64,000 nucleotides of DNA from Terebella lapidaria (Eukaryota; Annelida; Polychaeta; Terebellida; Terebellidae). Positions 11,101 through 41,100 of the stretch are shown here, one piece after another. The position numbers and the translations under genes are program-made. Under the pieces are notes generated by a model. It was not told the DNA's origin. It saw only the letters and a program-made list of their open reading frames with translations, and did not search any database. The stretch covers positions 39,501,719-39,565,718 of the forward strand of contig OX424560.1 of the NCBI GenBank assembly GCA_949152475.1. The letters run 5' to 3'. Position 1 is the first letter of the stretch; each line of letters opens with the position of its first letter.

Positions 11101-14100
11101 TGCCGTGCAGATGTTGGTGAAGTTGGGCTGATGACTCTCGACAGTCATCAGGATCTTCTCAAACCAGCTGAGTTTGAGCTCGGCCCCCGGCCAGACCGGC
11201 GTCTCCTGTTTGAGAGCAGTGCGGAGGAGAGCCACACAGCGACGAGAGAGGATCTCCGCCGGGGAACCGGGTGTTGTTGACGGCTCATTCACCTGTGCCA
11301 AAATGGGTTGTTAAGGATTTTATTCAAGTCTAGTTTGAGCAACATCTTGCATGTGCACCCCTCGATCTGTGAGGTGCAAATTAATCTTGCTGATGATTCA
11401 CTCAATGTGTAATTAGTCGTCATTTCTATGAATCCGATTGCTACTGGTTGAGACTGGTTCTCACATGATATCATATACCAGATATTTACATGTTCCAATA
11501 AATTTATTTGGGTCCAAGAAAGATTGAATGTTACCTGACAAGCGATCCGGAGGAGGAAGTTGACGACTCCGTCACAGTACTGCTTCTCTATAGGCTTGTT
11601 GACATCCGACACAGGCCTGATTCCCTGCACACAGAAAACACAGTTAATAGGGTAGTCAATAGACCTTGAGACTGAGACACCAAACAACAAACACCACCAA
11701 ATTCCATCCACCTCTTGGTTCCATTTCTCTACTTTTATCCCATGATGCTGTATTTCACTACTTCACTCATGATATCAGTGGCCACAAATTTGTCATGCTG
11801 CTTGTATTATTATATTTATCCAGACAAGGAACACCTGTATGCCTTAAAATGATTTATTAATAACTGACTAGTTATAAGAACAGTGACTAAGATACACAAA
11901 TGGGTTTAAACCATTATTGAATGAGATTGAATACATGAATATTGTATAGTTGATAGATTACCAACTGGGTAACATGAAGTAGTGTACAGTATCCGATGGG
12001 GATAATAGAGATTGAATGATTATATACATGGAAAACCAGACTAGACTAAGGACACAAGCAGTACATGGATATTATACAATTACAATTAATACAGACATGG
12101 TTTTGGACAAGTAACTTTACATATATGTATACACAGTTAGGACTGTCAAGAAGACTTGTCAGCCCTAAGTGAATACAAACTATTTTGCCCGAAGGTGGCA
12201 AAGTAAACTACTGATACAAACATGTGAGATATATACAAGTAAAATTGGATTTGGAACACATATATATGTGGATAAGTAACTTTACATATATACATGTTGG
12301 GACTGTCAAGGAAACTTGTCAGCCCCGAATGACACGAACGATTTGACTGAACGAGGCATAAAGGTGGTGGAGGGGTGGAGGTGGGAATTTTTTCTTACAG
12401 GTTGAACGAACAATAGAATCAGAACTGACGAGATGAAAACAAAACGGGGTTCACACACGGGGTGTCAAACGAGACTTTGCGAGACTGAAGTTTGGAATTA
12501 CCGTACTAACACGTATAACGTATACGGAAGATATACTTTAGAAAAGATATTCCCTCCTTGCTGTATAAAACGAATTACTGTGTAATTCTGGATTTATCCA
12601 GACAAGGAACACCTGTATGCCTTAAAATGATTTATTAATAACTGACTAGTTATAAGAACAGTGACTAAGATACACAAATGGGTTTAAACCATTATTGAAT
12701 GAGATTGAATACATGAATATTGTATAGTTGATAGATTACCAACTGGGTAACATGAAGTAGTGTACAGTATCCGATGGGGATAATAGAGATTGAATGATTA
12801 TATACATGGAAAACCAGACTAGACTAAGGACACAAACAGTACATGGATATTATACAATTACAATTAATACAGACATGGTTTTGGACAAGTAACTTTACAT
12901 ATATGTATACACAGTTAGGACTGTCAAGAAGACTTGTCAGCCCTAAGTGAATACAAACTATTTTGCCCGAAGGTGGCAAAGGAAATTGAGAGACTGCCAT
13001 GGTAACCGTGTAACCGAGTGGACTCATACCAGACAAGGTAGGAACTCAATTGACCGGCAAAATAGGAAAACGTACGAGTATCCGAATGGATACCGAATCA
13101 GGCATTATGGATAACTTTGGGTTTGATATAACGGAGGAAGGCTTGGGATTTCCAGCGGCCTATGGCGGAGATGTGTGAGTCAGAGTATCCTTGGGAGGCG
13201 AGGTCAGTAGCTTTCCCAATGCGGAATGAGTGGGTGTTGAAGTGGTTTGGGTTGTAACCAGAATATGTTAGGTGGGTGTGAAGGATTTGAAGTAAGAAAC
13301 GCCGTGTGATGGGTTTGTTGTTTTGAAGACAAAACAACGGTCCAGGGCGTGAGCCTCGAAGGCGAAGGTATTTCTGTAAGGACCGGACAGGGCATGTGTT
13401 GTCGCCTGTGGCATGTAGAATGAGTGGAATGGACGGTTTGGAGTTGAACTTGTACGACGGGAACTTGATGGTGACATGAGGTTTCCGTGAAGTTGCCGAT
13501 AAGCGAACATGATCGTTTTGGAGGGTGTGTGAGGAATTGGAGCTGAAGGCGATCTCACTGATGCGTAATGCTCCATGGTACATCAGGTTGAAAATCGACT
13601 TGAAAAGACGACGTTGGTACTGGTCTGGCGTGTGATTTGTGAGGGAGACTATGAGCTTCTTCAGGATTTTTAGATGCACTGGGGATCTGATTGGAGCACT
13701 GGCATCACGTTTGGAGTAGGTTTGAAGCAGGCGTCTGATGAGGTTACCTCTGGTAGGGTTTTTCTTGCCCGTCACCGAGTACATGAAACCCACTGCTGAG
13801 AGGTGGGTTTTGATGGAGGAGGCTTTCATGTCATGATAGTGGAGGTGGGCTACATAAGTAGCAACATCGAACTTGGTAATCGCAGCTGCAGATTTTCTAA
13901 GTGTTGACGAGATGAATGTTTGGAATTTTGTCCAAGCAGTGAGATAAGTTTTTCTGGCATTTGCTGAAAGACCGTCAATCACATCCTTGGTCACACAATC
14001 ACGAAGTTCTCGGGCCGAAGGGAGACTGGGATGGGGATGGGTTCGGGTGCCATGTGGTTGGCGTCCAACAGCGCAGGCGTGACCTTAAAGCGGGAAATAC

Positions 14101-17100
14101 GATCACATAGCACATTAGTGACGCCAGGGATGTGTCTGGCTTTTAAAGAAATGTTATTTACAACTGAAAATAAGACCAGAGGTCTGAGAACTTTCATTAT
14201 CAGGGGGTCTTTGGAGCTTTGGTTGTTAATGATATGAACAACAGCTTCATTGTCCAGGTGAAGCAGGACATTGGAGTTTTTAAGGGAAGCCCCAAACATG
14301 TGGATGAGAACATATATTGGGAATAGTTCTAGAAATGTGATAGAGAGGTGTTGCCAAGCGGTGGGATATTTAGACTGTATCCAGTGGGTCTGGAAGGATG
14401 CGCTGAAGCCAAGTGGACATGCATCTGATGTCATGGAGAGTGATTGAGAAGTGATGATATTCTTGAACCGAAAGTATGTGATGCCATTGTAGGTATGAAG
14501 GAAATGATGCCAAATCCAGAGGTCCTCCTTGACCGATGAGGTTAAGTGTATTTTATAGAATGGTTTCTGATTTGGGTTCAACAGGTCAATTAGGCGCCGA
14601 AGGAACGGTCTCGCGGGAACCACTAAGGATGCAAAGCTCAACTTGCCAATCAGAGATTCCAGATGTTTGCGTGTGATATTCTTTAGAGCTAGAGTATCCA
14701 AGATGAACTGGGAATAATTGGTGATTTTTTCCTGTGGGAGCCTGGCAGATTGGGAGAGCGTATCCAATTCGATTCCCAGGAATACTGTGTTGGTGGAGGG
14801 TTCTGTGGTTTTGTCGCCAGATATTGGGACACCAATGTCTTTACATAGATTAAGAAATGCAGCCAAATAGTGTGCACATTGATGTTGGGTTGCGGCTAAG
14901 ATGATAAAATCATCTATCATATGGAGGCAGTGAGCATGGGGGTAGTAATGCAGAAAAATAGCTTCAAGTGCTGATGAGAACTTTTCAAAAATCTGACATG
15001 AACTACCACAGCCTTGAGGTAGGCACTTATCAAAGTAGTATTTGTCGTTGAAGCGCATACCAAGTTTGGGTTGGTCGACTGGAGAGATAGGGATTATACG
15101 ATAAGCATTTTCAATGTCGGTTTTAGCCGTGTACGAGCCAGTAGGCAAGTCCAATAGGACTGAGATAGCGTCACCGACGGATGCATATTTGACTGATTTT
15201 GCAGAGTCTGGGATATTAGAATTGATTGAAGTGTCATCGTATGGGAAAGACAGATCATGGATCAGTCGGAATTTACCCGGTGATTTCTTTTCGCGGAGAG
15301 ACAATGGTGACACCTGGAAATGAGTGAATGGGGGCTGGTCGAAAGGTCCCAGGAGCCGCCCAGCTTGGATTTCGGAGTCAATCTTTTTCTGCACCGCTTC
15401 AGGGTGAGAATTAACAGTAGGGCTATTACGTGGTGATTGTTGATTTGTGAAATGTTGGGTTTCGAGGGAAAACCCATTTGTGAAGCCGGTGACTAAATAC
15501 TTGGTCAGACAGGGATCGTAATTGGCTTGATGTAGGTGATGTAGCAGTCTATCAGGTCTTACTGGGGTAACTACTTGAGAATCATGGTTTTGTGGTCTTG
15601 TGGGTTGTCTTGGAAGTGTGTTGTTGCTGAAGTTCAGTTCTGGGTTTTGTGTTGGAACCGCAGGGTCTGAAGACAGGGTGGTACTTTTGGCATTTAGGGC
15701 AGGTGTGCTTGTAGGAGCAGTTAAGGCCTTTTGAGCAGTGTTCGGTCTTGGAGTGGAAGTGAACGCAGTATCCGAGCGGGATGTAGAGGCCATCTGCAGT
15801 TTTGAGGGTTGATGAGGAGCCAGACTTCGCCTGGCCGGGGGCACGAAAGGACTGAGACCGTGGGGTGCTGAAGTGCAGGTATAAATCATGGCGGAGGGTT
15901 GTCCAGGCGTACTTGGAAGCTTCGCGATCTTTCCTGAAGTGGTGATCGTATCCCAGCCAGTCATGCCCAATCTTGGACATCTGTGCAATCTGGGACTTGT
16001 AGGTGAGTAGCGATTTGGTGAGATTGATAGCTGAGCTTGTAGAATGGGCACGCTCGACATAGATGGCTGTGTAGGTGTCGAAAGCTTGGGCCCACTGCTC
16101 AAATGACACCAGTGGCTTGGGGGCCTGTTTGACCAGTTTTGTGTTAAAATTTTTGTCAAACTTCATGACATATTCAGAGTTTTTAGTGGGGCATGACGGG
16201 AGGAGTAAGGACAGGTCGACATATTTATCAGCGAGGATCTTTTTCTTGAGTTTGTGAGAGACATTGCTTCCCACGATGGAGCCAAATGAGAATACTTGAT
16301 CTGGATACTGATCAGAATCACTGGAGGGAGATGAAGATGAGGATGTACCTGAGTCGGTGTCCTGGGTGTGGTGCTTTTTTGGCCGGCATTTTTGGTGTTT
16401 CTTGCGACGACGAGGGGGGTTGGCTGCTTCAAGCTCAGAGTCATCAGACGAGGAGGAAGACGGAGAACGTTTCCGCTTGTGTTTCTTGGTGGCCTTGCGA
16501 CGGGGCGGTGGTGTTTTTACCTCAGGTGCGGAGGAAGTACTGTGTGCAGATAGGTGCTGGTCGTGTGATTCATCCTCCGCACTGGATGACTCCTGCTGCG
16601 TGGCGACTGCTTTGCCTTTCTGTTGGCTGTCCACTTTTTTCAGGTTCTTCTTGAGGCGCAGAACACTGTCCAGCAGGTTCTGGGCACTCTGGGTGGAAGA
16701 GGTGGAGGGTGTGGGGTCGCTTTTGGCAGGTTTTGCCGTTCGACCCATGGTTGGTTGTCTGGAATGGAATGAGAAAGTAGATGGAAGTAAATAAAAGGAA
16801 AAAACCAACTGAACACCAAAACGATATGTTTTGGACGAAGTGCCTGGGGCGCTTGGGAAGGTATGAAACATTCAAGGACGTGATAACAGCAGTTACAATG
16901 TCAGTATACGAGGATAAGATTGGTTTGGATAATTTGGAGATTGGACTGAAATAATAAGGTAATGTCAGTAGACATGGAGATTGAAGGAATTGGAATTTGT
17001 GCCGTAATGAGAAATGTCAGTAGACAAATGGATGGCACTAGCCGTAACAAGAATTGTCAGTAGACAAATTCTGAGGTACATTGTATGAGATAAATACAAA

Positions 17101-20100
17101 TAGGAAGTTTTAAGTTATTAAAACCAGTATTTATTACACACTTACCTCTATAATAAACACTTTGGGTAATCTTACTTGGCTTTCAAATAAGAGGGAAATC
17201 GCGCCATTAAATTTTTTAATGGCAAACTCTCTTAAACTGGTCGTTCTATGCCCCTCAGTCAACAGTCATTCATAAAAGTTTCTTGACGAAACTTGACTGT
17301 GTCAGTGGTCACTGAGAAATCTTTCTTGACGAAGCTGTTCCACCGGAACCGCCATTACTTTGTCCCCCAAAAGGTTAGGCTGGGGAGGCGGGAGGGAACA
17401 TGACCGTGTTTATTATAGAGGTAAGTGTGTAATAAATACTGGTTTTAATAACTTAAAACTTCCTATTTATGTCCACACTTTGACCTCTATAATAAACACT
17501 TTGGGTTATATCAGAATAACCACAGGAGGTGGGCTAACCCCTCTCCCACGTCAATGAACATCATTGAGGCATAGAACGCACATATTCAGTTGAGCATGAA
17601 GTTACTATTAAATTGAGTTTAATTTCGCCCTGTAGTAATTCGTTGAGGGTTTAATACCCCCGACGAGTAATTAACAATTAGTTTAATAACATGGGCGAGT
17701 AACGAACATGAACAATAAAGAATAGTACCTGGGTAAGAGAGTGAAGTCGTAGAGGTGATTCCCCCGCAGTTGTCTTGCTGTCGGCGGGACAACTCAAAAT
17801 TTCTTTCACCCAAATAAGAGGGACAACCAGAATCTCCGAGACGACCCGTCCACTAGAGATGTGCGTATATACACGTGCAGTCCCTTATGTACATCATTTA
17901 CAGATGGACCTTATGCTGCGCGGCCACCACGGGTCCAAGGCGGTAGCCGGAGTCGTCCTGCCAGGTCAGTTCCCTGCAGTAGAAGGAAACAAACGTATTG
18001 TTAGAGGCCCAAGTGCAGGCCTGCATGACATCGGACAATGCAACATTATTCATGAACGCGAGAGACGACGCGAGCGCTCGCACATCATGAGCCTTCACGC
18101 GGAAGGAGCCCGAAGTCTTAGTTTTGGATTTTTCATAGCAGAACAAGACGCATTTCTTAACCCAGGACGAAATCGTTGCCGGTCTGATATCTTTAGAAAA
18201 TTTCTTCTTAAAGGCAACGAAAAGCAAGCGTTTCCCGACATGGAGCTCCCTCGTGCGATCAACGTAGATGCGCAAGGCTCTAACGGGACACAGTTTAGCA
18301 TCTTCCTCCAGGCCCGGCCCCAACGAAGAGGTAAGGGACGGGATAGAAAAGGACATAGACGGGGTATGAGCTAGCTGAGTCTTAGCCAGAAACGAAGGGA
18401 TAACTCCGAGAGTAACCGCGGAGCCATCTTCCTTCCAAAGAACTTTGGAAAAGTCAAGAGCATGAAGCTCACTTCTCCTCTTCCCCGAAGCTAAGGCCAG
18501 GAGGAACACGGTCTTGAACGTAAGGAACTTAAGCGACGCTCTCTCCAAGGGTTCAAACGGATCAGAGAGAAGACAATTTAGAACGAGCGATAGATCCCAG
18601 GTCGGGACGGGATTCCTCAACTTGGGTCTCTCCACCACAAAACTATTCAACAAAGCGGACAAACTTGCATCCTGACCGAAATCAACCCCCGTTTTAGGTT
18701 TGATAGTTTTGGCAATCGCAGTCCTATAGCCTGCGAGCGTAGAGGGGGCTTTCCCCTCCTTGAACTTCTCAAGGAGAAACTCGGAAATCACAGGAGCAGT
18801 GACCTTGAAAGGACTAACCTTCCGGCCACGGCACCAAGCACAGAATCTCGTCCACTTGGATTGGTAGACTGCCAAAGAAGATCGTCGATTAGTTCGGGCG
18901 ATCCTAGCTGACACCTCTCTTGAAAAGCCCTTCTTTCGGTAACATCGCTCGACAAGAGCCACGCGTGTAGCTTGAGCGTGCCCGGGGCTTGATGAAAGCG
19001 ATCTGACCGCGGCTGTTTTAACAGATCCGACCGGTCTGGTAGTGGAACTGGGCTGTCCACCAACAACTCCAGAAGGTCCGGGAACCACGACTTCTGTGGA
19101 AGTTGTGGGGCAATGAGAATCATCCTGCTGCGATGAGCCTTGAACTTGGCTAGAACCTTGTCCAAGAGAATGGCAGGAGGAAAGGCATAAAGAAACATCC
19201 CGTCCCAATCTAGGGACATCGCGTCGACCGCCCATGCTTGATCGTCTGGGATCGGGGACACAAACGTCGGAAGCTTGGTATTCCACCTCGTGGCGAACAG
19301 ATCCACTGCAGGTCTGTCCCACAGGTGACAGATCGCCCGGAATACTACCGGAGACAACGACCACTCCGTGGCCTGAATCTGGCCCCGACGAGACAAACGA
19401 TCGGCCCACACATTCATATAACCGGGAATGTGCCGGGCCCTGAGCGTAATCCGGTGGTGGAAGCACCAGGTCAGCATCTCCACCGTCAACAAACACAGGG
19501 ACATGGACTTGGTCCCGCCCTGCTTGTTGACGTAAGCCACGACCGTTGAATTGTCCGTGGCGTGGTGCTCCCAATGCTGAAGCGCGAGAAACACTGCCCT
19601 CATCTCCAGCACATTGATATGGTCGTCCTGCTGTGACCGAGACCACCGACCCGAAATCTCTTGATCGTCCCAGTGAGCTCCCCATCCCTCCATACTGGCA
19701 TCCGTAAAGAGATGCCTGGAGGGAGGAGGCGGACGGAATGGAGCGCCCCGAAACAAATTGGCCGGGTCCAACCACCATCGCAGGTCTCGAACGACCTGGT
19801 CTGACACGTGAACCAACTGGGCCATGTCCCCCGTTGCCTGCGACCAGTTGGCATGAAGCTGCAACTGGAGGGACCGCATATGCAAGCGACCTAGAGGCAC
19901 CATCTTCTCGGTCGCCGCTAATGTACCGATCAGAGACTGCCAACGCGAGGCTGGCTGAGGAACCCTGGTTAAGAAACCGCGGGACTGCTCTGATAACTTT
20001 GACCGACGTTCCTCCGTCGGGATAACATAACCGGAGGTAGTCCGAAATCGATACCCCAAGAAAACGAAGTCTTGACGAGGAGATAAATCGGACTTTTTTT

Positions 20101-23100
20101 GATTGATTTTGAAGCCCATGGACTGACACAAATCCACAACCCACTGGGCCTGACGAAGCAAAGTTTGAGGGCACTGATGCCTGATCAACCAATCGTCGAG
20201 ATACTGGTAGATCACAATGCCGTTCCGATGGGCCAACACCTGTAGCTCCCGAACGCACATCGTAAAGATCCAAGGGGCGGTGGACAGACCGAAAGGCAAC
20301 GCCCGAAACTGCCACACCTGGCCCTGATAAAAGAACCTGAGGTATTTTCTGACGGACCTCCTCATAGGCACGTGAAAATAAGCATCCTTGAGGTCGATTG
20401 TCACGACCCAACCCCCTAAGGGCATAGCCGACCTTACCACCTCCGCCGTCTCCATGGTGAAGGTGGGAATAAGCAGATAACGGTTGAGAGCGGAAAGATC
20501 TATCACCGGCCTCCAACCGCCCGAAGCCTTCGGAACTACAAACAGGATACTGTAAAACCCCGGGGAGCTGCCCGAAACTGGTTCTACCGCTCGCTTTTGA
20601 ATCATGGCCGAAATCTCGTCTATCAGCGCCTGACGCCTTTCCGGGTCGTGAGGCAACGAAAAAACCCTTGGAGTGAGCGTCAACGGAGGAAACTGTTCGA
20701 ACCGTAGACCGAACCCCCGACGCAAGGTGGAGACGATCCAAGGACTGGCTCCTAGGTCTCGCCAACGAGGCCAAAAACCTCCTAGTCGCGCGCCGACAGG
20801 CTCGTTTATATCCAAGATATTTACTGGAGCGAGTGAACTTGGAGACTCGACCAGACGTGGGGGTCCCACGAGAGAAGATGAGGGTATTACCTGACTTCTT
20901 AGCCCCTGCTGGCTTTGCTGGGCTAGCTGGACGTCCGCGACCGCGACCTCCACGTCCACGCTGCCCCCCTCGCTGACCGCCTGCAGGGGCCCCACGAAAG
21001 GGCCGGTCCAGGGCCTTGCCTTTACCGCGCCCTACCGCTGAGGACCCAGCACCAGAGGAAGCTGACTGCTGCTGCTGCTGTGGGCGCTTACGCTGCTGCT
21101 GCTGCTGTAAAAGCATGCGGGACCATCTCTCCATAGCCTTAGACTGCATAAGGGAAGCGTCAGTCGAGGCCTTAGCCCGGTCCCGCTCCTCTTGACGAGA
21201 CTTGAGGGCATCCACCTCGAGGTGAGCGTCCACAGGGAAGAGAAAAGGAGAGGCAGGCCCAGACTCCGGGAGAACTGGATGACCACGGAGCTTAGCCAGC
21301 AACTGGTCAGGGACCTTCAAGTCCAGACGCTGGATCACGGAATCCCTCCGCCAAAGCTCCGATGTCCACCAGGCCGTGCAATCTAGGGAAACCTTATCCG
21401 CCACAGCCTTTCCCAACGACTGTAAGAGTCCAACAGAGCCATGGAGCACATCTGCGAGTTCAGAGCGATCGAGGTTCTCATTGTCCATGACCTGCTCATA
21501 ACACGACGTCGTAGCCAGCGTGAGAGCATGGACCATCCAATCCATCGATGAATCCACGGCCACGCCCAAACGTAAAGCAGCCTGGAAATCCGTCAACTGG
21601 TTCCACGGGAGAGAAACAGTCTTAGGCACAGAGAAAATCTCCTGTTCCTGTAACTTGGAAGGCTCTGCATCCAGGAGTGACGAAGAGTAAAAATCCTGGA
21701 TCTTAGGCTTAGCCGGCAAGAGTCCAAGCTGAGGACGGCCACGTTTCGCCGTTTCCTCCACCCTAGCTGCCAACATGTTCCGAACACCCGGTGCTACCGG
21801 AAAGCGCAAAGCGTCACGAGGGACCTTGGGCTGCTGGAGATCCCGCTCCGTGAAAGAACGTGCCCGCTTGGCTGGAGGTGGGGATGTTGACGCCAGATCC
21901 GGCCACTCCTCCCCAGTAAGCCTACGGACATAATCCAGTTTATCGGCCCACGGGCGCTTAAAAGGATTATTTGACTCCTCCTCATCCTGGGAGCCGAGAT
22001 CATCCTCACGGAGGCGCTTGGGACGAACCAGACCCGAAGGACCCGGCAAAGGCACAATGCCATCTTCCCGAGAGCTGTAGGGCAAATCCACCGAAGACTC
22101 CGCAGAAGGAGACGCCGCCGGAGGGGCCTGAAGCCGCTGGACATCAGGAGCCTGGCGCGCCAGGAAAGAATCCAGCCTGTTCATAACCTCAGCCCTCATG
22201 GCTTGCATCTCCGCCTGAAACTCGCCTCGCGATAAAAAATGGGAGGAGACCCCCGGAATCGTGGACAAGGGAGTGCGGAACGGTGCCGTAGCCACAGACA
22301 GCGCAGAAACCGAGGCCGAAGGTGACGCAGACGTAGCCGCCACGGAGGCAGAAGCCGAAGGAGCCGCAGGCGCAGAATGCGTAGCATCCACTGAACTTGT
22401 AGAGGCAGTCGCCTGGGATTCCATTGGAGCCGACGAAGCCGGGGGGTTGGAAATCCCTGGAAGGAGGGGAGATGACGGGACCTCCGCACCCTCAAAATCC
22501 TCCGCAATCTGCGGGAAGAAACTCACGTTAGAATCAAATGACACAGACTTGCGAGATGATTTGATGGAAGTAGTAACGCGAGTTTGTGGACGCGAATGCC
22601 ATTGGTTAACTATAACCCTGGGAGACAGAGGATAGCCGGGCCTAAAACCCGTACCCGCCATTGAGCTCCGCTGGGATAACGGCCTAGGGGATCCACACCC
22701 CGAAACACGGAACAGAGGTGAGGATAAAGGCCGAAACTGGTTCCCGGGAACCGATGCACGGCTCCCGGGAACCGGTTCCCGGGTCCCGAGAACCGGTTCC
22801 CGGGTCCCGGGAACCGTAGGTACAGAACCAGCCAGAGTGGAGACAGCCGTAGCCGCCGCCGCCCCAGAGGAACGTGGCAAACCCAACGCAGGAAACCGGC
22901 CCCCGGGATACGGGTATCCCGAGGCGCCCGACGCCTGAAGTCCACAAATTGAGACGTTGACGGAATTGAACCTACGGGTAGAGGACACCGAAGGCCGCAT
23001 CCGAACGGAGCTCAATGCCAGGTAACCGGGGTCTATGGGCATGTTTCGGCCCCTTGCCCGGCTACCCTCAGGCGGGACAGGGTTAGAGTTAACCAATGTC

Positions 23101-26100
23101 ATACACGAAGTATGAATTGAAAAACTCGCGGTACTACCGCGGTAGTACTGGTTCCCGGGATCCGGCAAGCCGGGTCCCGGGAACCGAGGAAGGCTGAAAG
23201 AAGAGCATAAATCATTACTCACAGCAGAAATCAAATGCAGCAAAGATAAATCCTGCTCCTCACGCTTCTGTATGGCCTGTTTATGTCTAGACCTAGCGCT
23301 AGAACTAGCCGAGGGACTTGGAAAGGGCGGGAGAGGTTTACTCATCCTTTCTTGTTGAACGGCTCTGAGACCACGCAAGTAGTCCGACCACTCGTCGACC
23401 GACCAACTCCCACACAGACCACAAGTCGCCGTTGGCCGACACAAAGATCTGCACATCCAGCAGGAAACGTGCAGCTCCCATTTCGGCAAAAACTGCTTAC
23501 AACCCGCGCACTTCATCTGGAAAATTCCAACATGAAAGAATGGGGGCGGGCGATAATTGAGGAAACTAAGTAACACTCGAGGAAATTACCAGTTCCTCAA
23601 CCGAAACTAAACTAAACTACTCTAAACTACAGTAGCTGTACGAAGTACACTAGACTGTGAAGAAATTCCGTTGGAAAAACGTTCGTATTCCAAGAGAAAG
23701 AGTGAAAAATCAAAAGTTCTAAAATAACTTTTATTTTTATACTATGCATACTTACCTCTGACTCTGGGGTCGTGTAATTGGCGAGCCCTCATTCGCCAAC
23801 CACACATGAAATATGGGTGAAAAAGCTAAACGAAAGTTAGCCGGTCCGTTTAGACCCTGCGTTAGTAATGGTAGTTACCTGAGCAGTTCACCCTCCGTGT
23901 GGTAGCATAATCGTGCCGGTCCACTGCCTCCCAGTTCACTTTTGTTGAGTTGCAACACTTGATCACTGAAGGTTATCTTCTGAAAAGACAAGAAGATAAT
24001 CAGCGGGGAGGAGGGTGGGACCATCCAACGTCAGAGGTAAGTATGCATAGTATAAAAATAAAAGTTATTTTAGAACTTTTGATTTGTTATGCTAAGCGAT
24101 ACTTACCTCTGACTCTGGGGAATGGCCTGCCGGTGGTGGGCCCCTCAGAGAGAAAGTACGCCTTGCACAAGATCATCCCCTGAAAGTAGAAGGATGAGAA
24201 CTATGCATAATACCAGTGACTATAATTACTGTATAAAGGATAAGGAACCCGCTCCTTTCCTATAGTAATTATAATACTAATTAACCACAGAGTAGCTCGG
24301 AAGTTAATAGTATACTGAGAGATACTTTGTAATCCAGAAGAATCTGAGATTACATACCTGTCGTCGAGTCCCTTGTGAGGCGATGAGCCGTAGCTAGGTG
24401 TTGAGACGGCGCTCCCCCCCCGGACTCTTGGCAGAAGAAGCAGTGGGTTGCACGATGACTTGTGCTGCGACGATGGGTCCCAGATGATAGAGGTCATCCG
24501 CGAGGAGCGATACATCGCGCAGGTAAAATGAAGAAAACGTAGAGTGAGATCTCCAAGTGGCTGCCTTCATGAGATCCTGAAGTGACATGTTGTGTGCAAA
24601 CGACCAGGAAGTGGAGATGGCGCGAACCTCGTGAGCCGTACGACCGTAGAGCTGATGTAGGTCCCGACGATCCTTACTGTAAGCACGTGTAACAACAGCC
24701 TTGATCCAAAGCGAGATCGTGTTCTTGGAGACCTGTCCTCTCGATGCCGAAAACGGGAGAAAGAGGTGAGATTCCCTTGGTCGTGAAGGCTTAGTCCTCT
24801 TCAGATACAACCGTAACGCACGCACCGGACACAGGGACAGATCCCCACAGTCAGTCGCCAACTGAGATAAGGCAGGGACAGAGAACGTTCGCATCCCAGC
24901 CGCCAGGGCAGAAGGAGTTTCGGTCTTGGCAAGAAACCCCAGATGGTACTGGAGGGTAACAGAAGACCAATCTTCCGGGTGTAAGACCTCCGCAGACAGT
25001 CCCTGAAGCTCACTGACCCGCTTCGCGGAAGCAAGGGCCAACAGGAACACAGTCTTGTGCGTGAGAAAACGAAGCTCCGCTTCCTCGAGAGGCTCATATG
25101 GAGATTCATTGAGGCTACAAAGGACCAATGACAAGTCCCATTTTGGTGCGCGGGAGACCGGAGGCAAATCCTGGGCGAAGGACTTGAACAGGGCCGAAAT
25201 CTCCCGTGATGTAGAAATGTCCAAACCGTGAGAAGCTAGCACATTAGACAATGCCGCACGGTATCCCTTGACAGTAGTAAGCGCCCTCTTGCGCTTGTCT
25301 CTCAACCAGACAAAGAAGTCCGCTACCGTAGGGAGAGGGGGACGGCGTGGATCAACTTGCCGTCGACCACACCAAGAAGAGAAGACTCTCCACTTGGCTT
25401 GATATAATCGCTCTGAGGATGACCGAACTGTTCTGGACATCCGCTTGGCAGCGTTCTTCGAAAAGCCAGCCTTTCTGAATGAACGCCTGATAATCTCCAC
25501 GCGTGAAGATGGAGAACGCCCAGATGCTCGTGAAACTGACGTCCCTGACGAAGCAGGCTGGGGATCGGTGGTAACAACCGTGGAAGATCCGTCAGAAGCT
25601 CCAGGAGTTCCGGAAACCAAGGCTTGGCTGGCCAGCAGGGAGCCACCAAGATGATCTGGGCCGAGCTTAACCGAATCCTCTGTAGAACCACGGGAATCAG
25701 TGAGAACGGAGGAAAAGCGTACGCCCATAGGATGGACCAGTCCTGAGCGAGGGCGTCGACTGCCCAGGCATGAGGGTCCGGGAACGGGGACACATAGAGA
25801 GGTAGACGATTGTTCTGGAACGTGGCGAACAGGTCCAAGTGAGGCTGACCCCAAAGACGCCACAGGTGACTGCAAACCTGGGGGTTCAGAGACCAGTTCG
25901 TGGAAACCGGACCCTTCCTCGAAAGGGCGTCGGCGATGGTGTTCATGGAGCCCGGGATGTGTCGGGCCAGAAGACTGACATCCTGGGATTCCGCCCACTC
26001 CAAGATTCTTCGAGTCAAGGCGCTTAGCTCCCTTGATCGTGTCCCCCCCTGATTCTTGATATAGCCGACGACCGTCGTGTTGTCGGTCATGGCCAGTACC

Positions 26101-29100
26101 GTGGACCCGGCAACCGTCTGATGAAAATGGCGCAGGCCCAACCAGACAGCCCTGAGCTCCAGCCAATTGATGTGATGCCGGAGATCGGCTGCCGACCAGA
26201 GACCAGAGACTTGACTTTCGCCGAGGTGAGCACCCCAACCGAGGCGAGACGCGTCGGAGAACAGGAGAAAGTCGGGCTCCAACTCGTGAATCGGATGACC
26301 CCGTAGCAGGTTGACTGGATCGGACCACCAGAGGAGATCTGGCTGGAGAGCGGAAACCACCGGAACCAGAGTTGACAAGTCCTGCTCGGAAGACCAGTGG
26401 TCCTTCAAGTGGAACTGGATCGCCCGCATGCGCAACCGTGCACCAGGGACGATCTTCTCTAGCGACACCATGTGACCTAGGAGCCTCAGGAACACCACCG
26501 CCGCGACGGGAACCCCGATGGAGAAAGACCGTAGAACGCCGTTCAAACGTTGAATACGATCTGCCGTCGGACGTGTCAGGAAGGACTGCGTGTCGATGTC
26601 CATCCCGAGGTAGGTGACACGCTGGGAAGGAGCCAAGTCTGACTTCTTGAAATTTATGATGAGACCGACTCGCTGACAAAGCCGAACGATCTGGTCCGTG
26701 TGTGCGGCCACCGTCTGCTGGTCCGTGGCCGTAATCAGCCAATCGTCCAGATACCTCGTGAGACGAATCCCCCTGCGGTGCGCCCACGCCGATACCGGCT
26801 GAAACACCCTGGTGAACAGGAACGGGGCGGTGGAGAGGCCGAAACACAGAGCACGGAACTGGTAGATCACGTTGCCCCACTGGAAACGAAGGTAGGGCCG
26901 TGATGAGGGATGAATCGGGATGTGAAAGTAGGCATCTTTCAGATCTATGGAGGTCATCCAGTCCCCGCTGCGCAGAGACAGTAGAACCGTCCGTGGGCAC
27001 TCCATGGAAAACTTCTCCTTGGAGACAAACTTGTTCAGGGGACTGAGGTCGATTATCGGTCGCCAGCCGCCCGTGAGCTTGGGGACGACAAACAGACGAC
27101 TGTAGAAGCCGGGAGAGTTCTGGGTCACCTTCTCCGTGGCTTCCTTGAGGAGCATCTCGGACACGAGGGCGTCCAGGACCGCAAACTTCTCCGACCCCGG
27201 GGCGTAGGATGCGAACGCTATCGGTAGAGGGGAGAGAGGAGGCGCCTGACTGAAGGGAATCCGGTACCCGTGACGCAGTATGGTAGTTACTAGACAGTCC
27301 TCGAATTCCGTATCCCAGACTGGCCAAAAGGCCTGAAGACGAGCTCCCACGGGGGATACATCCGAATCGTGGTTCCGTGGGAGCGTCTGGGACACATCAG
27401 GAGCGGGGCTGAGGCTTGGCAGAAGACGAGGATCCACTGCCGCCGCGACCTCCACGTGAAGAGTTAGTCGACTTCTTGTTCTTGTCAAACTTGGAGCCTT
27501 TAGAAAACTGAGACGACTGAGACTGCTGTTTCGACTCCGTGGCCTTGACCTTCGGGATCTTGAACGACGAGGAAGAGGATGCCGCAGGCTTCTTCTCCTG
27601 GCGTTCCACCAATTTAACTAAGTTAAATTTGCTGAGAAGGTCCGCTTCCTGGGCAACCGCCTGGCCTGCCTTGGCCAGGACATCCGGGTCAAAGAGGCGA
27701 GGACCAAAGACCGAGGATGTGCGTAACTTGGACTTGAAGGCGTCCGACAGCTTGGAGGTAGATCTCTTGAGAAAGGCGTCCCGTCGCCTGAGAACAACGT
27801 TGGCCCACTCCACGTGCGACTCCTTCGTAATCTGTCCCACACACTTGTTAACGGAGGAAAGAGTCCTCTTGATGCGCAGCAACTCTGACACCGGTACTTG
27901 AACAGTGGCATCCGTGTCCAAATCGGCGTCCGCTGGAACCGAACCGGGGGCCAGACGGTCGACCTGCACGCTGAGGAGGCCCGAGAGCCAGTCGAGGGTG
28001 TTGGCAACCAGTTGTACCCGACGCGGGTAAGACTCCCAGGTCTTGAGATCTGAGTCCGAAAGTGTAGCGGTAACACTCGAGGACTTGAGCCCAGGGGCGA
28101 TGACTGACAGGTCGTCATTCACCGCCGCTGCCTCCAGAGTGCTACCGCAATCCGTAGACTGGTAGTGCTTTAATTGTCCTTGGAAGCACGAGGCGAACTT
28201 GCCAGCTCGTAGGGGCTGTCCATTGACTGGGACGATCTTCTCTTCCACTAGAGTCCGTACTGACAAGATACCCTCGGACCACGGGAAGCGCACGTCCGGC
28301 TCCGGCTGCTGACGGGCGTGGAGCACACGCTCACCCACCGACGTATAAGAAGTCCCCTTGGCTACAGGTAGCTCAATCTCGTCAGGGAAGGCCTCCTGAA
28401 CCCAAACGCGGACCTGGGCAAAGGTGTCGTCGTCAGACTTGGAGGAGGAAGGCTTGGAGGTACCGGCCGTAGCTGAGGAGTCGGCAGACCTAGCCGGGCT
28501 AGCCACCCGCGGCTTCTTGACTGGAGGTTCATCCGAGATCTGGTCTGCCGGGGGGGGAGGCAACGAGACTGGAGGCTCCAAAACAGCAACAGAGGACGAC
28601 TCGGCCGCGTGTTGCTCACCTTCAGACCTAGGGGCGTGGTCTGAAGCGGGACGCTTGGGCTCCCTCACACGGTCGTAGTCCGAGCGTGAACTTTTCTCTC
28701 CACGGCTACCGTGAGAATCCCTGGAGGAGTAGTCCCTGCGGTCCGCACGCTCCCGACGGTAGTAGTAGTCCCTATCGTCACGAGAACGGCCGGAACGGTA
28801 GTAACGATCCAACTCTTCATGGTAAGCACGGTCAAAGTCATATTCACGACGATGATCATAAACCCAATCACGGAACCGATCCGCGCGGCTGGAGGACGGA
28901 CGATCCCAATCGCCGGAACGGTGTTGATCCACAGGCCGAGCTGGACGGTGGCGGCGGTCAGGCGAGGACGGGCGGCCCATCGCTGGAAGAACACTACCCG
29001 CCGTGGCTGTTGACCCGCGGTGCGAATCTCCACTGGAGGAAGACGACCGGCTGTCCGCGCGTCGACTGACGGACGGTGGAAGATCGCGGGGCAGAACACT

Positions 29101-32100
29101 GGGCTGAGAAACCCCCGGGCTGGCCACCGGTGGCTGCTGATCACGGTCACGGTCGGGTAAGCACCCGCGCGGCACCGCTGCGGCTGGAGAAGAGGTACCC
29201 TGGGCTGAAGAGGCGTCACGGTGCTGAACACGGCCCGGGCTACCAGCGAGAGACTTGTCCACCACAAGCACATCAACAGGGCCGTCGGAGAGCTGGACGG
29301 TGGAGCAGTCGGGGGGGCCACACTTGGCACGACCGACGGGGCCCCTGCCTTCACCTGACTGTTCCTCCGAGACCGACTCGCCGGTCTCGGCAGCCTGGGA
29401 ACGGGAATCCACCGTGGCCGAGTCAACTGGCTCCGAGAAGATCGGGTCCAACGAAGGCAAACCCCAGGAACACGAAGGCTGGTCAGCTGGACTGTGGCTC
29501 GGGGGGTTGCCGCCGACGAACGGGTCACCAGAGAGAAGCGGCGTCGGAACTTCATCCACCGTGGGGGTGGCCGGTGTCGCAACTCCTTTCCCAACCAGGG
29601 ACGACAACATCGCCGACATGGACGCAATGGAAGTCTGCAAATTCCCAACCGTCTGTTCGAGGGAATCAAGACGAGAGGAGGAAGAGGAATCCAGAGATCG
29701 TCGATCAGCAGAACGCGACCTCTTCTTCTCCCTGTCGATCCTACGCTGATCTATCCTGTCGAATCTGTCATCGGGCCAAGATTCGCAGATCTGACAGCGC
29801 TGAGACGCACAGCAAACAAACGGTCTGCAAGACGGACAGCGATCGTGAGGATCGAGATCGAGAGGAACCAAGAAGTGTCCACACTTGGTACATCTCCTGA
29901 CAGAAGACGATTCCATCGTAGAAACAGCTAAGTTCCAAAATCCAAACTTCAAAGGGGCAATCGCGAGCGACGCAAAGTTGTTGTTGACAGGAGCTCGCCA
30001 AAAACAAAAGTGAACTGGGAGGCAGTGGACCGGCACGATTATGCTACCACACGGAGGGTGAACTGCTCAGGTAACTACCATTACTAACGCAGGGTCTAAA
30101 CGGACCGGCTAACTTTCGTTTAGCTTTTTCACCCATATTTCATGTGTGGTTGGCGAATGAGGGCTCGCCAATTACACGACCCCAGAGTCAGAGGTAAGTA
30201 TCGCTTAGCATAACAACTCCAAATTTGAAAGCCTAGCAAGATCCTTTGAACTGGCGCCAAAACCAGGGACAAAGGTAATGGCGGTTCCGGTGGAACAGCT
30301 TCGTCAAGAAAGATTTCTCAGTGACCACTGACACAGTCAAGTTTCGTCAAGAAACTTTTATGAATGACTGTTGACTGAGGGGCATAGAACGACCAGTTTA
30401 AGAGAGTTTGCCATTAAAAAATTTAATGGCGCGATTTCCCTCTTATTTGAAAGCCAAGTAAGATTACCCAAAGTGTTTATTATAGAGGTCAAAGTGTGGA
30501 CATAAATAACAATATTGGTATGTATGGCAGTAGCCGTAATGGGAACTGTCAGAGGACAAGTTCGGAGGTACGTATGGCAATAGCCGTAACAAGAATTGTC
30601 AGTAGACAAATTCTGAGGTACATTGTATGAGATAAATACAAATAACAATATTGGTATGTATGGCAGTAGCCGTAATGAGAACTGTCAGTAGACAAGTTCG
30701 GAGGTACGTATGGCAATAGCCGTAACAAGAATTGTCAGTAGACAATTCGGAGGTACATTGTATGAGATAAATACAATAACAATATTGGTATGTATGGCAG
30801 TAGCCGTAATGAGAACTGTCAGTAGACTAGTTCGGAGGTATGTATGGCACTAGCCGATAAAAAGAATTGTCAGTAGACAATTCGGAGGTACATTGTATGA
30901 GATAAATACAATAACAAGATTGGTAGGTATGGCAGTAGCCGTAGTGAGAACTGTCAGTAGACAAGTTCGGAGGTATGAGGTGAATATGAAGAGAGTATTG
31001 GTATATGTTGCAATAACCATAAGTTAATAAGAAGATGTCAATAGACAAACCGTTGGACAACGGGAACTTTGATGGGAAGAGATTCAACTGACACGTGAAG
31101 ACACGGTCAGTTGTGAAGCTGTGTCCGTTCAACTTGTTGAATTAGAAGACCCAGTGCGTCCAATCACTTTCAATTTGAAGAAAATGAGGCCGTGGCGAAG
31201 CCGGGTTTTGTATCGCTGATATCCAGAAGGAGAGTTCGGGTGGATACCGTCAGTTGACCAGGAGGTAGTGCCAGTTGGGTTGAAAAAACCAGTCAATTTG
31301 TTGTAGGTGATTTTTGATTCAGCTGTACAAAGTTGTTTAATTATGTGATTAAATTGGTTGATGTTGGCCAGGAAGATGTCTGGAGATGAAGCTAGATTGT
31401 TGGATCTGGGTAGAACACTGTTTATGATTACAAGCTGGAGTCCGTGACTGAGGAGTGTTCGTGCTTTATCCAATAGGCTGGTGGCCAATTGTAAAACCCG
31501 AGCGGGGTCTACACTTCCAATGTGGGCGATGTCGTTGGATCCAACGTCGAGTAGGGCAACATCTGCGTGCAGGGATGGCACGGATGGCAGCTTTTTGTCA
31601 ATGTCTTGGATGAAAATGACGTTGTCGCTCAGCGCAAATACCTCGGAATAATGTTCGTTCACGAGTAAACAGGAGGAAAGGGCAGCTGCTTTTGCAGGAT
31701 CGATAATGTCTTTCGGTTTTCCTTTCGTCAGTTTCGATTTCCTTTTAGATTTTTCTTCGGGTTTTAGTTCGTGTGTGGAGAGTCTGCGAATGAATGAATG
31801 TCCGATGACTATGCCTCGCAGCATAGCGCAGTTTTTAATGTAAACAGTGTCACAATTCACGTGGTAATCCCGTCAGAATTGAAGAAGAGCAGGAGCAATC
31901 AATTTTTTTCTTACAGGTTGAACGAACAATAGAATCAGAACTGACGAGATGAAAACAAAACGGGGTTCACACACGGGGTGTCAAACGAGACTTTGCGAGA
32001 CTGAAGTTTGGAATTACCGTACTAACACGTATAACGTATACGGAAGATATACTTTAGAAAAGATATTCCTTCCTTGCTGTATAAAACGAATTACTGTGTA

Positions 32101-35100
32101 ATTCTGGATTTATTGAGAATTGAAAAGGTGCCGGACAAATTGAATGATATGTTTTCAGTGGACGAGTAGTAATCTATTGGGGCAGTGACCCAAACCCACC
32201 GGTCCAGAGGAGTGACGGGCGCGCTTGGCCTCCTGCGGAGAATCAACAGACGCGGATCGTTTGACGGCGACAGCGCTGGTCTGAGGAGGCGTGGCCTCTG
32301 GGGTCGCCACGGAAACCTCAACATCCGACTCTTCCTTCATGCGCTGGACCTCCCACTTGATGATGACCTCCGCCAGATCCACCGCCAACTTGCGGTGCTC
32401 GATCGTCGCCTGTAGAGTTGTGAATCCAGGTTATAGGGTACTGTACTGACTCAAATTTTGCTATTTTAGGTTCTCGCTTTAGTTTCCCTGCAGATGTATT
32501 GCTGTAAGCAGAAAGCAGTTGCTGCAAGCACATATTGTTTAGATGATTTGTATTTGTATGATTAATCATCTATGCAAGCATCCAGATAGAGGTAATAAAA
32601 TTCATTGAAATCCCAACAACAGTCAATGATGACAGTATTAACTTCCCAAATGTGGGACATGATGGAGCGCTGTTTCCCGTTACTCACATTGGGGGTCAGT
32701 CCGAGTCGCTGGATGGAATTGACCATGTGTTGTACGAGGTGATGTCTGACCACGAAGTACACTTTGTAGTGTCGTACCAGCAGCTGACTGGAAGTGTACA
32801 CCGACACGAGTCAGGACAACATTGCTCAGGTCAGAGGAGAGCACATGGGATCATTCATGAAGGGTTGCGGACAAATTCACCACACAAATTACTCTGATTT
32901 CAGTATGTGTACACTCAATGATTACAAGACTTACAAGGCTGTTTACCACACTAGTTGCTCAATCAATGATTACCAGATCTGTACTTACAGGATGTGTACA
33001 AGCTGTGCCAATGAGTGGCCCTCCTCTACAATTATTTTCTTCGTCCAGTGGGTCAGCATGCCCTGTATAACATACATACATATTCTAGTACACCAACCCT
33101 TAACAATCATCTAAAAACATTGAGATGAATATCCAGTTACAAACTAAGGTAACACACTTGTTAGAACATAAAGCTGTAGCGCACACTGTTCTCTATTCTG
33201 CACATAAACTAGATGCCAAGGCCTGAAGGTGCCTTGGGGCATTTCGTCAAGTAACAGTTACCGAATCCTCCATTCTTCCTGGCATGGCTGGTGTCAGGAT
33301 TTCCAGGGCTTGTCTGACAACTGCTCTCGCTTCCACGGCATGCGCCTTCAACAGGCTATGGAACACCTACATGACGATAGGTTAGATACATGATCCTTAC
33401 AATTGAAACCTCGATTGATGACATTCATTCAGCAATACCATGCACCATACATCCTCTAGATGCTCCTAAGAAGCAGTATTAAATCAATACTAGCTAATTG
33501 ATCCCGAGTCACTTCAATTACCTGAAGGACAATACGTTTGTGGATGGCAAACTTCGCGATGATGTGCGACAGAAGCAGGTGGCCATGGTACTTTGTAGCA
33601 GGATCAACACAGTTCTTCGCCAGCAGACATGGCCACGCGAACGTCATCAGTCGACGTAGTTTGGAACCCTGCTTCCTGCACACAAAAATCCCCAAGTATC
33701 AAGATCATGCACTTCTACATGTATTTGTGGTGATCTTGCATGCATATCGATTTATACATCATAATTCTTCTTTCCACACAAGTCCCCACCATCTCATATC
33801 GATGCTCAAGACACTCAGTATAACACTTTCAACAGACTTATCCCACTATTCAGGTTTTCCAGACCCCTTACTTGTTGGCCGCGTCGTGGATGTGATGCGA
33901 TGCTTGTTCCACAAGAAGTGATGAGAACTGCAGCAGAAGGATTCGCACGGCGTCAGAGGTCCCGAACGGGTTGTCAGGGTCGATGATTCTGTTGATGAAG
34001 ACGCTGATGATATTCTCGGGGTTGTCCTGGTCGGGCGCCGGTGGCCCTCCGATAAGCTTCTCACCCTCGCCCTTCTCAAAACTATTAGCAAAGCAGGGGA
34101 TCAGGATATGCTGCAAAACCTGTGAAGAACAAACATGATCTAATATTTTACTATTGTGACATAAAATAATATAATTTATACCTTATGGGTTTCTGTTGAT
34201 ACATACAGAATTTATTATCCCTGAGGCCTGAATGATCTACATCTATCATTCGAATGCTAATGCAATGGCAATAGTTTTGGCTGCCAAGCCAAGGGTTGTT
34301 TCACTCATTGCGCAAGTACAGAACTCTATACATGTTGGAAAATACCTTAGCTTTCAGTTCCTGTGGCCAGGCTCGGTCAGGAAAAATGTCAACAAACTTG
34401 AAGAAGGCAGCCCGCTTCCATTCCACTGTGTAAGTCTGTTAGGCAAAGGTAAAATATATAACTAGCCAGTCTTACAAGGATGAGGTTATGACTAAAGAAC
34501 ATATTCCACGGTAAGCATTCAAGGCATTACACTGTATGAATGCATATCATCATTGATGTTCAAAATTCATTGTTATCAATTTCAATCAGATTGACTTATT
34601 TCAAGTATTCCATTAATCTACCTCAGCGATTGTATCCTCCAGGAAATCTTTGACAAACTGGAATTGTGGGATACATCGGGTCGTAAAACAGCGAAGAACA
34701 TGGAATAGAAGCTCAATCTCACTCGTGTGGATCCTGTGAGAAGTGAAACAGAAACTACTTTGTGGAAAACCCAACTAGATTATGAAGTGAAACGAAAGCT
34801 TACAAGCCTGTCTAACTGACTTGAAGAAGTCTCAAGGGTTTTTGAGGGAAGAGACCTACTTGAAGTATTCTAGTAGGCACTCAGCCAGCAGTCTGGGTTC
34901 CTGCCAGTGGCCATAATCAACTGAACCCTGCAGGAAACAATGCGATAAATATCAATGGGTCATCAACCTCCATCAGTCACAAACATGAAATACCCAACAG
35001 AAAAGATTATTTCCAATCGATTTTTATGGATAAAACAATATGCAGAAACGCTGCTGTGCAAAACACCAATGATCACCGTCCACTGATTACACTATTTGGT

Positions 35101-38100: not shown

Positions 38101-41100
38101 TCATGACAAAGAGTAGAGCTTTGAGCAGCATGAACTGATGTTCCAGGACCCACTTCTGGGACATGTTCTTGAACATAAACTTGATCGCCATACATCTGTG
38201 GAATAAACATACATTGGCACTTTTTTTTTGACCGAAGACTTGCTTATGTAAATGAGGAATGGGCTTTCTGTATTAGGACATGGTACGTTTATTCAAATAT
38301 AGTGGCATAGACAGTGGTTCTTACCCTCCAAGTTTGGCATACCAAGCCCGCTCATAGCATAGAGCACACATCTTTTCAGCCATGTGAGAGAACAGTGGAA
38401 GACAGCATGCCTGTAAGGGAAGACAAAGACACAAGACTGATCATAGAGAAACCAAAATGGTAACAATCTCATTGGAACCTTCACCAAGTCACAAGTTTAT
38501 TTACTGACAATAGCCGTGAGAACATTTTTCGAGGTGATTTACACTAATCAATCAAAATATAAGTGAATGTTTATTACCGGTATAAAGATTAATGTATGTC
38601 AATGCGCATTCCCAGAGACCTACCCTTTCCTTGGAGCCGAGAACGTTGCTAGCAGTATCCTGGATCAGACACAGTGCCAGGTTTCCAGGCTTACACAGCT
38701 CCTTCTCCTCGTGGCCCATGATGATAGCGAGCGCGTCGATCATCACCGAAGGGTCGAGGCCGGACAGCTTGTTCTGCCGGTCTCCGACTAAAGGGAACGG
38801 TCCACTCTGCTGCGCGACAGCCACTAGAGTGTAATGTCGCACCATCCCCGCCATAAACGGCACCACTTGTGTGCGCAGGTCCTTAATGGCAGCCGCAACT
38901 GATGAGCAAATAGAAATGGTCTTGATCGTTATGTTTACTGGTGATCATTATAATATTGAATAGGTTGTTCTCACAAAATAAGCATAGCAGATAGCATATT
39001 GTGTTGATTTCTGACCGTTGTGTGGCCTGAAACCTACCAAACATGCCAGCAAGTGCTTGTTCCTGGATCTTTCGGATGTGTGGATCCTGTGTCTTTTGCT
39101 GGTTTACCGGAGCAGGCGGGATGTCAGAGTCACTGAACCTGCAAAAGAAAGATGCATGGTTAGTTCACCACTGGATCAGCATCTCAATTAATTTTGGTGC
39201 TGTGGCTGAGATATTCGGATACCAAATCCGATGACATCTCAATATAATTTCTGTCCCTTCTGAACATGACAAGTAGCTACTAACGCCTGGTGGTTGAAGA
39301 GATGAGCCAGTGTTTGTTTGTCGTCGCTGAGGTCCATGGTCGCAACGAGGTAGCACTTGATGACCTCCCAGGCCTGTTTGCGGTAGAACGCTTCTGTGTT
39401 GCTTGACTTGAGTGCCTCGAATGCCATCTCAATCGCCTTCTCAACAGGCAGAGCAACTGCAGTCTTGCAGTCCTTGAATTGGATCATAATCGCGGGGCCC
39501 GTCGACTGGCGATCATTGTGCTTCAGCTGTTGTCAGAAACAGAAATATATGATGCTACTGGGAACATGATGCACATTGGGAAAAGTTCCTCTTATGGGTT
39601 TCTGGTAAAGTGCATACATGTGTATGGTGCACTTGTATATATTTTTCATTTTGCAGGAGCAATTCCGTACCTTCTGCGGCTCCCTAAGCATCTTGCGGTT
39701 ACTGCCACCAAACTTTCCGAGGACGCGGAAAGCGACATGAGCGACAGTGTCAGGTGGGGAGGAGAGACAGCGCCACAGAGCCTGGTATATCCAATAGAAT
39801 ACAGTCAAAGCCTCAGAAATCAGCAAATGACATAAGCAATTGAGCCTCTGTACACTGATCAAGTATAGGGTATGTGGTGCCCAGAAAAGTCCACCAATTA
39901 CTTCACTCAGTATTACTTGCTTCTCACAAAGTCCTTACCTTATATTAGAAACCCATAAGAGAGATCTCTCTTATGGGTTTCTGCTTATATGCATTCACAT
40001 GCAATCAGAAGCGACACGGTGGTTCAAAGTTTGACAATACAATGTCATTGACCATACCTGCATTAATTCAGACCGGACTGGCTGGATGTGGTCGTACAGG
40101 AAGTCTGGCTGTAGGTTGTCAACACACAGCTCCAGAGTGCGTAAACCCTGCAAACGACGACACACAAAGGGTTGAACAAAAGGAAGTTTTAACTTGTTTA
40201 AAACCAGTATTTATTACATACCTACCTCTATAATAAACTCTTTGGGGTAATCTTACCTTGGCATTCAAAGAAGAGGAGAGAGAAATGAATGTCACAAGAA
40301 TTTTCTCAAAATTCCTGACATCCATCTCGAACTCGAAATTGAAGGAAATTACTCTCACACATCTCAGATTCCCCGCGGTGTAGATGTGACGTCACACCGG
40401 TCATATGATTGACCTTAACCGCCATTAATTTGCCCACCTGGTTAAGGCAGGGGAGGCGGGAGGGAGAATAATCGTGTTTATTATAGAGGTAGGTATGTAA
40501 TAAATACTGGTTTTAAACAAGTTAAAACTTCCTATTTATTGCCATACCACTACCTCTATAATAAACTCTTTGGGTTATATCAGAATAACCAAAGGAGGTG
40601 GGTTTAACCCTCTCCCGGGAATTTCATCACCGATGTGTGAGAGTAGGAAATATCCATTGAAAGTAGTAAATATTGTGTTTTACTTTTAAATTATAATTTT
40701 AAGTCGAAAATACATATTTACAGGATATTTACAACTATACCATAATACACGCCTGAATTACCTTCAGATGCATGGAGACGAGCAGGGGCTCTGCAGAGGT
40801 GACTTTCCTCTTGCAGAAGAACAAAAATTTCCCTCGCCAAAGAAGAGGAGCAACTCCCCTGGGAGTCGACCTCAGGTGCATCTGTACAGAGGCGTGCTGA
40901 TCTATTTACAGGTATCTACAGCTGGACTACACGCTCCGCCGCCACCAGTCGTCCAAGCTGGAGGCCGGAGTCATCCTCCCAAGCTAACTCCCTGAGATAG
41001 AAAGAAGTGAATGTGTTATGAGATTTCCAGGTACAGGCAGACATGACATCATTCAGAGACACTTTATTTGTAAAGGCAAGTGAAGCCGCGAGAGCCCTCA

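Follow-up and report, generated by a model that had tools for sequence, protein, structure and literature searches.

Three nested tyrosine-recombinase retrotransposons in a TRRAP intron of Terebella lapidaria and the junctions at their points of insertion

In what order, and by what kind of exchange, do retrotransposons come to lie one inside another? The question is raised by a stretch of 64,000 nucleotides from the polychaete Terebella lapidaria (assembly GCA_949152475.1, contig OX424560.1, positions 39,501,719 to 39,565,718), called here the window, in which three retrotransposons of the tyrosine-recombinase (YR) type are nested in one intron of the TRRAP gene. Repeats, open reading frames (ORFs) and Pfam matches place a DIRS1-like element, DIRS-C (23709-30216), inside another, DIRS-A (17102-30507), which in turn lies inside a Ngaro element (11816-32109). 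All three are on the minus strand and run in the sense orientation of TRRAP. An initial annotation, made from the letters of the window, had proposed this architecture, and it is borne out by the repeats, ORFs, Pfam matches and flanking exons; the limits that it gave (11814-32113) are the Ngaro ends together with six shared bases, ATTTAT. We consider it very probable that the stack records three separate YR insertions, in the order Ngaro, DIRS-A, DIRS-C, each of them conservative and placed by chance rather than by targeting.

Architecture, empty sister sites and order of insertion

The TRRAP intron that holds the stack spans 11293-32199 on the minus strand, with bounds set by eye at GT (32199) and AG (11293). 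It is 20,907 bp long, of which the stack makes up 20,294 bp. TRRAP exons lie on both sides: the upper one (above 32200) aligns to residues 1993-2069 of human TRRAP, and the lower one (below 11292) to residues 2109-2178 (8h7g_C numbering). Between the two matches about 39 residues of the human protein are left without an alignment, and a tiny missed exon may lie there. All 14 matches to PF20206 (Tra1-ring family) in the genome fall inside the window.

Each of the three elements is a complete-looking copy bearing the repeats of its family. DIRS-A interrupts the 135-bp minisatellite of Ngaro at CAAAT^AACAATATTGG. This site is uninterrupted in all three Ngaro relatives that were fetched (C11, C6, C17), which carry GAGATAAATACAAATAACAATATTGG, the window sequence once DIRS-A is removed. 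The joined window flanks are 96.7-97.1% identical to these relatives over 558-768 bp, and the left flank alone is 99.1-99.6% identical. DIRS-C interrupts the DIRS-A leader at GAGTGAAAA^CTCC, 43-44 bp from the start of arm-like sequence and about 195 bp ahead of the DIRS-A gag ATG. The leader on the gag side of DIRS-C (23514-23708, minus strand) runs on into 30217 onward in 28 of the 29 non-window DIRS-A right-end loci, so that the DIRS-C site is uninterrupted there; the leader is diverged in eight of the 28, and the remaining locus (L029) did not match the probe. Because the inner sites are uninterrupted in sister copies, an assembly artefact is unlikely as the source of the three nested YR elements in the TRRAP intron.

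The order Ngaro, DIRS-A, DIRS-C is supported, and it is the nesting only that gives it. The initial annotation had added near-identical terminal repeats as a sign that the order was established within a short time; the order stands, and the use of repeat identity as a clock does not. The two DIRS-A arms differ at four of 226 positions (indices 4, 5, 7 and 223), and these are the same in 8/8 arm pairs, window included. Since the differences are fixed, arm identity is no measure of age, and terminal-repeat identity was rejected as a clock. Ngaro, necessarily older, shows only one mismatch in 390 positions of repeat B and one in 210 of repeat A. Private substitutions of the window copies number 2/1475 for Ngaro (four relatives), 2/1498 for DIRS-A (seven) and 0/1499 for DIRS-C (30). 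These counts agree with the insertion order but are too small for proof, and between-copy divergence was likewise set aside as a second clock. Among the Ngaro relatives L070 stands apart with 120/1440 differences, possibly through misalignment. Judged from sequence comparison, all three elements look young. Among the matches listed, DIRS-C ends are 100% identical over 449 bp in 40/40 cases and DIRS-C reverse transcriptase (RT) matches lack stops in 57/59; a first look at the genome gave 9,365 DIRS-C RT candidates, a loose figure.

In the ORF list no later insertion breaks a reading frame of an older element, in agreement with the initial proposal that no older coding region is interrupted. The same proposal had each newcomer landing in a leader. 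This is so for DIRS-C, in the leader of DIRS-A; DIRS-A lies in an internal spacer of Ngaro, between its SGNH and gag ORFs.

Stepwise, Ngaro would have come first, into a TRRAP intron then about 613 bp long, followed by DIRS-A in the Ngaro minisatellite spacer and DIRS-C in the DIRS-A leader. In each case the element's own recombinase would have recombined a circular copy conservatively with the recipient DNA, at a weak, A-rich target that is probably RAN^A for the DIRS families and AT^NTAT for Ngaro (R, purine; N, any base; ^, point of entry). The stack would be a chance product of a genome rich in young DIRS copies, without targeting, and the older coding frames were probably spared as newcomers hit AT-richer non-coding DNA, placement and chance being enough.

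Junction sequences and the point of exchange

Forty-four DIRS junction pairs, both ends of each copy, were compared: 23 from DIRS-A and 21 from DIRS-C, window included. The DIRS-A pairs are copies with both ends among 40 listed left ends and 30 right-end loci, at least nine further listed copies being unused, and the DIRS-C pairs represent 20 of 30 loci and the window. The lists hold the best 40 of 940, 1373 and 598 first-look candidates, and older copies are thus missing.

One target rule was found for both DIRS families, R-A-N^A, with the element entering at ^. Adenine at -2 and a purine at -3 are each present in 44/44 targets, and adenine at +1 in 39/44, against a background frequency of A of 0.32-0.33 (binomial p 4e-22 for A at -2, 2e-14 for A at +1). 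A pyrimidine occupies +2 in 17/23 DIRS-A and 20/21 DIRS-C targets. The window obeys the rule except for a C at +1 of the DIRS-C target, and one of the other 20 DIRS-C copies has the same exception. For Ngaro and its three relatives the common target is AT^NTAT. No target-site duplication was found at the junctions of any of the three elements, where ambiguity is limited to the bases common to circle junction and target (ATTTAT, AAATA and AA).

The base N bears on the point of exchange. In the circle junction, as read from the internal complementary region (ICR), it is T in DIRS-A and A in DIRS-C. At the 3' junction of the element N is unlike that of the circle in 11/23 DIRS-A and 12/21 DIRS-C copies (23/44), and at the 5' junction it equals the circle's base in 44/44. 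At all differing sites, including those of a fourth YR element of the window (E4, below), the 3' junction carries the N of the target and the 5' junction that of the circle. On the +1 side the target's base is unlike the circle's in five of 44 cases, and the 3' junction retains the circle's base in every pair. For three copies with N unlike the circle, the empty-site relatives carry the N of the junction in 5/5, 4/4 and 1/1 cases; since all ten do so, no base was gained or lost, and N is the target's. The same ten alignments rule out, for these three copies, that N was added without a template. The two DIRS junctions of the window say nothing about N, as target and circle agree there. A second, staggered exchange class was seen in 0/44 pairs, where random settlement of a heteroduplex left by staggered cuts predicts about half of the informative copies to be reversed.

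These junctions indicate cleavage of the target at a single point and its exact restoration. A roughly one-base overlap, strand-biased settlement or repair, and single-strand exchange are possible sources of the one-point pattern, and the data choose none of them. That DIRS integration proceeds by single-strand or near-blunt exchange is conceivable but, on the sequences at hand, rather doubtful. In integron cassette capture a one-strand exchange is completed by replication, and by analogy such an exchange would explain the one-point pattern. In the published DIRS model a 3-bp circular junction recombines with an identical genomic triplet (PMC3266345). This identity is not seen here; unlike in the model, one base beside the exchange is free, and 23/44 pairs differ at N. 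In Table 3 of the same source (Piednoel et al. 2011), start and end triplets are unlike in 10/28 elements (PMC3266345), which fits a free base. The family name DIRS1-like was kept, because the 3-bp identity is a claim about mechanism and the source's own table has unlike triplets.

Two further features of the junctions were observed. Thymine occurs at +8 in 30/44 DIRS targets (p 4e-7), a pattern spotted post hoc; it could mark a second recombinase contact. The Ngaro circle junction CTGGATTTATCCAG (11816-12203, 12586-12600) is a near-perfect inverted repeat centred on the exchange point, a symmetry that would be as expected for a recombinase core site.

Alternative histories and the choice of landing sites

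Repeat families might have been mis-joined in the assembly, the elements truly lying side by side or on separate haplotypes, and DIRS-A and DIRS-C, highly repeated and of near-zero divergence, are where assemblers fail. Yet every junction falls exactly at the circle-junction position of its family and conforms to the target rule seen in independent copies, the interrupted sequences match their sister copies when rejoined, and the window, scanned for N, contains none and sits on a 44-Mb contig of the 762-Mb genome; we find such an error scarcely credible. Several points nevertheless weigh against three separate chance insertions. The Ngaro site in TRRAP is without an empty counterpart, and the evidence comes from a single individual's assembly. 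Top-scoring copies supplied the junction pairs, which form no random sample and may hide rare classes. The Ngaro coding region holds 84 RAN^A sites per kb, about as many as host DNA of the window (84-85), so composition alone fails to explain why DIRS-A missed the Ngaro genes. It is also possible that DIRS-A already contained DIRS-C on arrival, through insertion at another locus and a later move of the 13.4-kb composite into Ngaro; nesting puts DIRS-C after DIRS-A, not after the move of DIRS-A into Ngaro. A composite move is nonetheless very unlikely, as DIRS-C is present at this site in 0/28 readable other DIRS-A loci, and reverse transcription would presumably need to pass the terminal signals of DIRS-C itself.

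Within the stack, the DIRS-A leader holds 102 RAN^A sites per kb and the Ngaro spacer 107, both with a GC content of 0.39, and the DIRS-A coding frame 60. A preference of the recombinases for other YR elements, such as has been described for DIRS-1 of Dictyostelium, could also account for the landing sites. One DIRS-C copy (L052) precedes the gag ATG of an E4-like DIRS element by about 32 bp and is oriented as in the window; a second (L062) is separated by about 50-100 bp from 51 bases that resemble a DIRS 3' end (L062 1400-1450). A DIRS-A copy (L037) adjoins short DIRS-end-like repeats (flank 12-144), a weak case. Over the 59 other copies (29 DIRS-A and 30 DIRS-C loci, mostly with one 1.5-kb flank each), however, a coding test found one in a YR element and a looser DNA test two to three, and the RAN^A rule is weak and its sites are common in host DNA. 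Targeting therefore appears improbable as the origin of the stack. Strong targeting to YR elements is not supported and chance, with many young copies, is enough, although a mild preference for YR elements is possible.

The elements, their neighbours and known systems

All features of this section up to E4 are on the minus strand. Ngaro comprises 6,888 bp of its own and 13,406 bp of guests, with RVT_1, Phage_integrase and GDSL matches. Its parts in reading order are A1, SGNH ORF, minisatellite spacer, gag-position ORF, RT, YR, B1, A2 and B2; the split direct repeats (A1-ORFs-B1-A2-B2), with RT and tyrosine recombinase, place it among the Ngaro elements. Split-repeat comparison located A1 at 31904-32109, A2 at 12388-12597, B1 at 12594-12981, its start overlapping the end of A2, and B2 at 11816-12203, at a fixed offset of 778 from B1. 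The first ORF encodes an SGNH/GDSL hydrolase (31129-31872; PF13472 E 9.4e-10, above the cut-off). The spacer consists of a part 5' of DIRS-A (30508-30999), with the 135-bp tandem array (30505-30975), and a part 3' of it (17032-17101) that is 99% identical to 30574-30644 and unbroken in 3/3 relatives. The ORFs that follow were taken stop to stop: a 429-residue open frame in the gag position (15582-16871) without a Pfam match, RT (13991-16162; RVT_1 E 5.5e-13) and tyrosine recombinase (13098-14084; PF00589 E 8.8e-10). Neither a methyltransferase nor an RNase H family was matched in Ngaro (Pfam, E 0.001).

DIRS-A has 6,898 bp of its own in addition to DIRS-C, delimited by inverted terminal repeats (ITRs), ICR and junctions. 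Its 3' arm (17136-17361, 226 nt) is 98% complementary to the 5' arm (30272-30497), which lies with the remainder of the leader in 30217-30507, as placed by repeats and empty-site loci. The ICR (17406-17509), with repeat pairs to both outer ends, repeats the circle-junction sequence GACATAAATAGGAAG. In the ORF list gag and YR form a single unbroken frame (17898-23513), in which residues of catalytic type were aligned, and the RT ORF (18788-21031; RVT_1 E 1.6e-20) overlaps it in another frame. The open frame as a whole (17898-23585) has 1895 codons and is open throughout the RT overlap. A search of the YR frame gave no Pfam recombinase match.

DIRS-C is 6,508 bp long, as defined by its junctions and by ITRs (23748-23946 and 30003-30201) that are complementary at 199/199 positions. 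The ICR with the circle junction (24025-24120) has repeat pairs to both outer ends. The gag-position ORF (27397-29916, first ATG by eye, from the ORF list) has no Pfam match, and the RT/RNase H ORF (25323-27617) matches RVT_1 (E 2.1e-25) and RVT_3 (E 1.2e-5), the latter without a match in DIRS-A. The YR frame (24394-27396) is the gag frame past one stop codon and is recognized by alignment and by a PF00589 match below the cut-off (E 0.0026); gag and YR (24394-30066) share a frame but for the stop at 27397. Neither the DIRS-A nor the DIRS-C RT frame matched a methyltransferase family (Pfam, E 0.001). Locus L052 (1-1500) is a second case of DIRS-C within a DIRS leader.

Both DIRS elements are DIRS1-like in having ITRs, an ICR near the 3' end that matches both outer ends across a circle junction, RT and no target-site duplication. 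R, K, HxxR, W and Y are invariant across three aligned sequences, those of DIRS-A and DIRS-C included; we take these to be the kinds of residue expected of a tyrosine recombinase. The profile match of the DIRS recombinases to that of Ngaro is weak (probability 21), and a recombinase comparison with solved structures gave Cre-type chains at E 0.001-0.02 only.

E4 (40181-46749), the fourth YR element of the window, is DIRS1-like, with ITRs (40222-40433 and 46521-46733) and an ICR. Its RT is 66% identical to that of DIRS-A, and its gag, unlike those of DIRS-A and DIRS-C, lies in another frame. The E4 junctions obey the RAN^A rule, with N = A (3' end) and N = T (5' end). A satellite array with a unit of about 134 bp occupies 53556-56334. 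Arrays related to it occur elsewhere, where they hold a DIRS-A copy (L003/L015) and flank Ngaro relatives (L074, L082). A search for a haemocyanin domain gave no match and carries no information on the host.

DIRS-A and DIRS-C resemble published DIRS1-like elements in their ITRs, ICR with circle junction, RT and putative YR frames and absence of target-site duplication, and the DIRS-A coding strand starts with ATT, the commonest published start (PMC3266345). At 6.9 kb and 6.5 kb, respectively, they exceed the published maximum of 6.3 kb in 28 elements (PMC3266345). The Ngaro element shares split direct repeats, RT, YR and an SGNH-hydrolase ORF with DIRS-53_XT of Xenopus (PMC9210276). It differs in having the SGNH ORF first and a minisatellite spacer before gag, whereas all Xenopus ORFs are said to overlap (PMC9210276).

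The initial annotation held stacks of this kind to be unusual, which was asserted rather than shown. Clusters of Dictyostelium DIRS-1 were reportedly the subject of work by Cappello et al. in 1984, and Malicki et al. are said to have dealt with single-stranded DIRS-1 cDNA in 2020. Nested YR elements are already in print. Insertion of DIRS-1 into DIRS-1 is on record in Dictyostelium, where YR elements lie within YR elements as they do here (PMC5633606). DIRS-1 is described there as preferring its own copies, in contrast to the mixture of two DIRS families and Ngaro, without strong preference, in T. lapidaria (PMC5633606). In Cafeteria an EMALE with two Ngaro1 insertions itself lies within Ngaro4, and the likeness extends to multi-level nesting with Ngaro and an intergenic bias; Ngaros there invade virophage-like EMALEs, whereas here Ngaro itself lies in a gene intron and, as the outermost element, houses two DIRS elements (PMC8547959). 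A literature search, mostly without full texts, turned up neither a single exchange point nor a triple DIRS/Ngaro stack.

The stack is a fresh instance of a known phenomenon, and its meaning is ordinary. It is a clean example of layered insertion, in which the two inner steps are provable within one genome because empty sister sites survive. Its larger value is methodological: near-identical DIRS copies, with paralogous empty sites, give the exchange point base by base, and it becomes testable from sequence alone how the circle of a retrotransposon that relies on a tyrosine recombinase instead of an integrase is linked to the chromosome. Among these results the junction rule most deserves to be followed up. 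Should a single exchange point also be true of other species, the published model, with recombination at an identical 3-bp overlap, would have to be revised.

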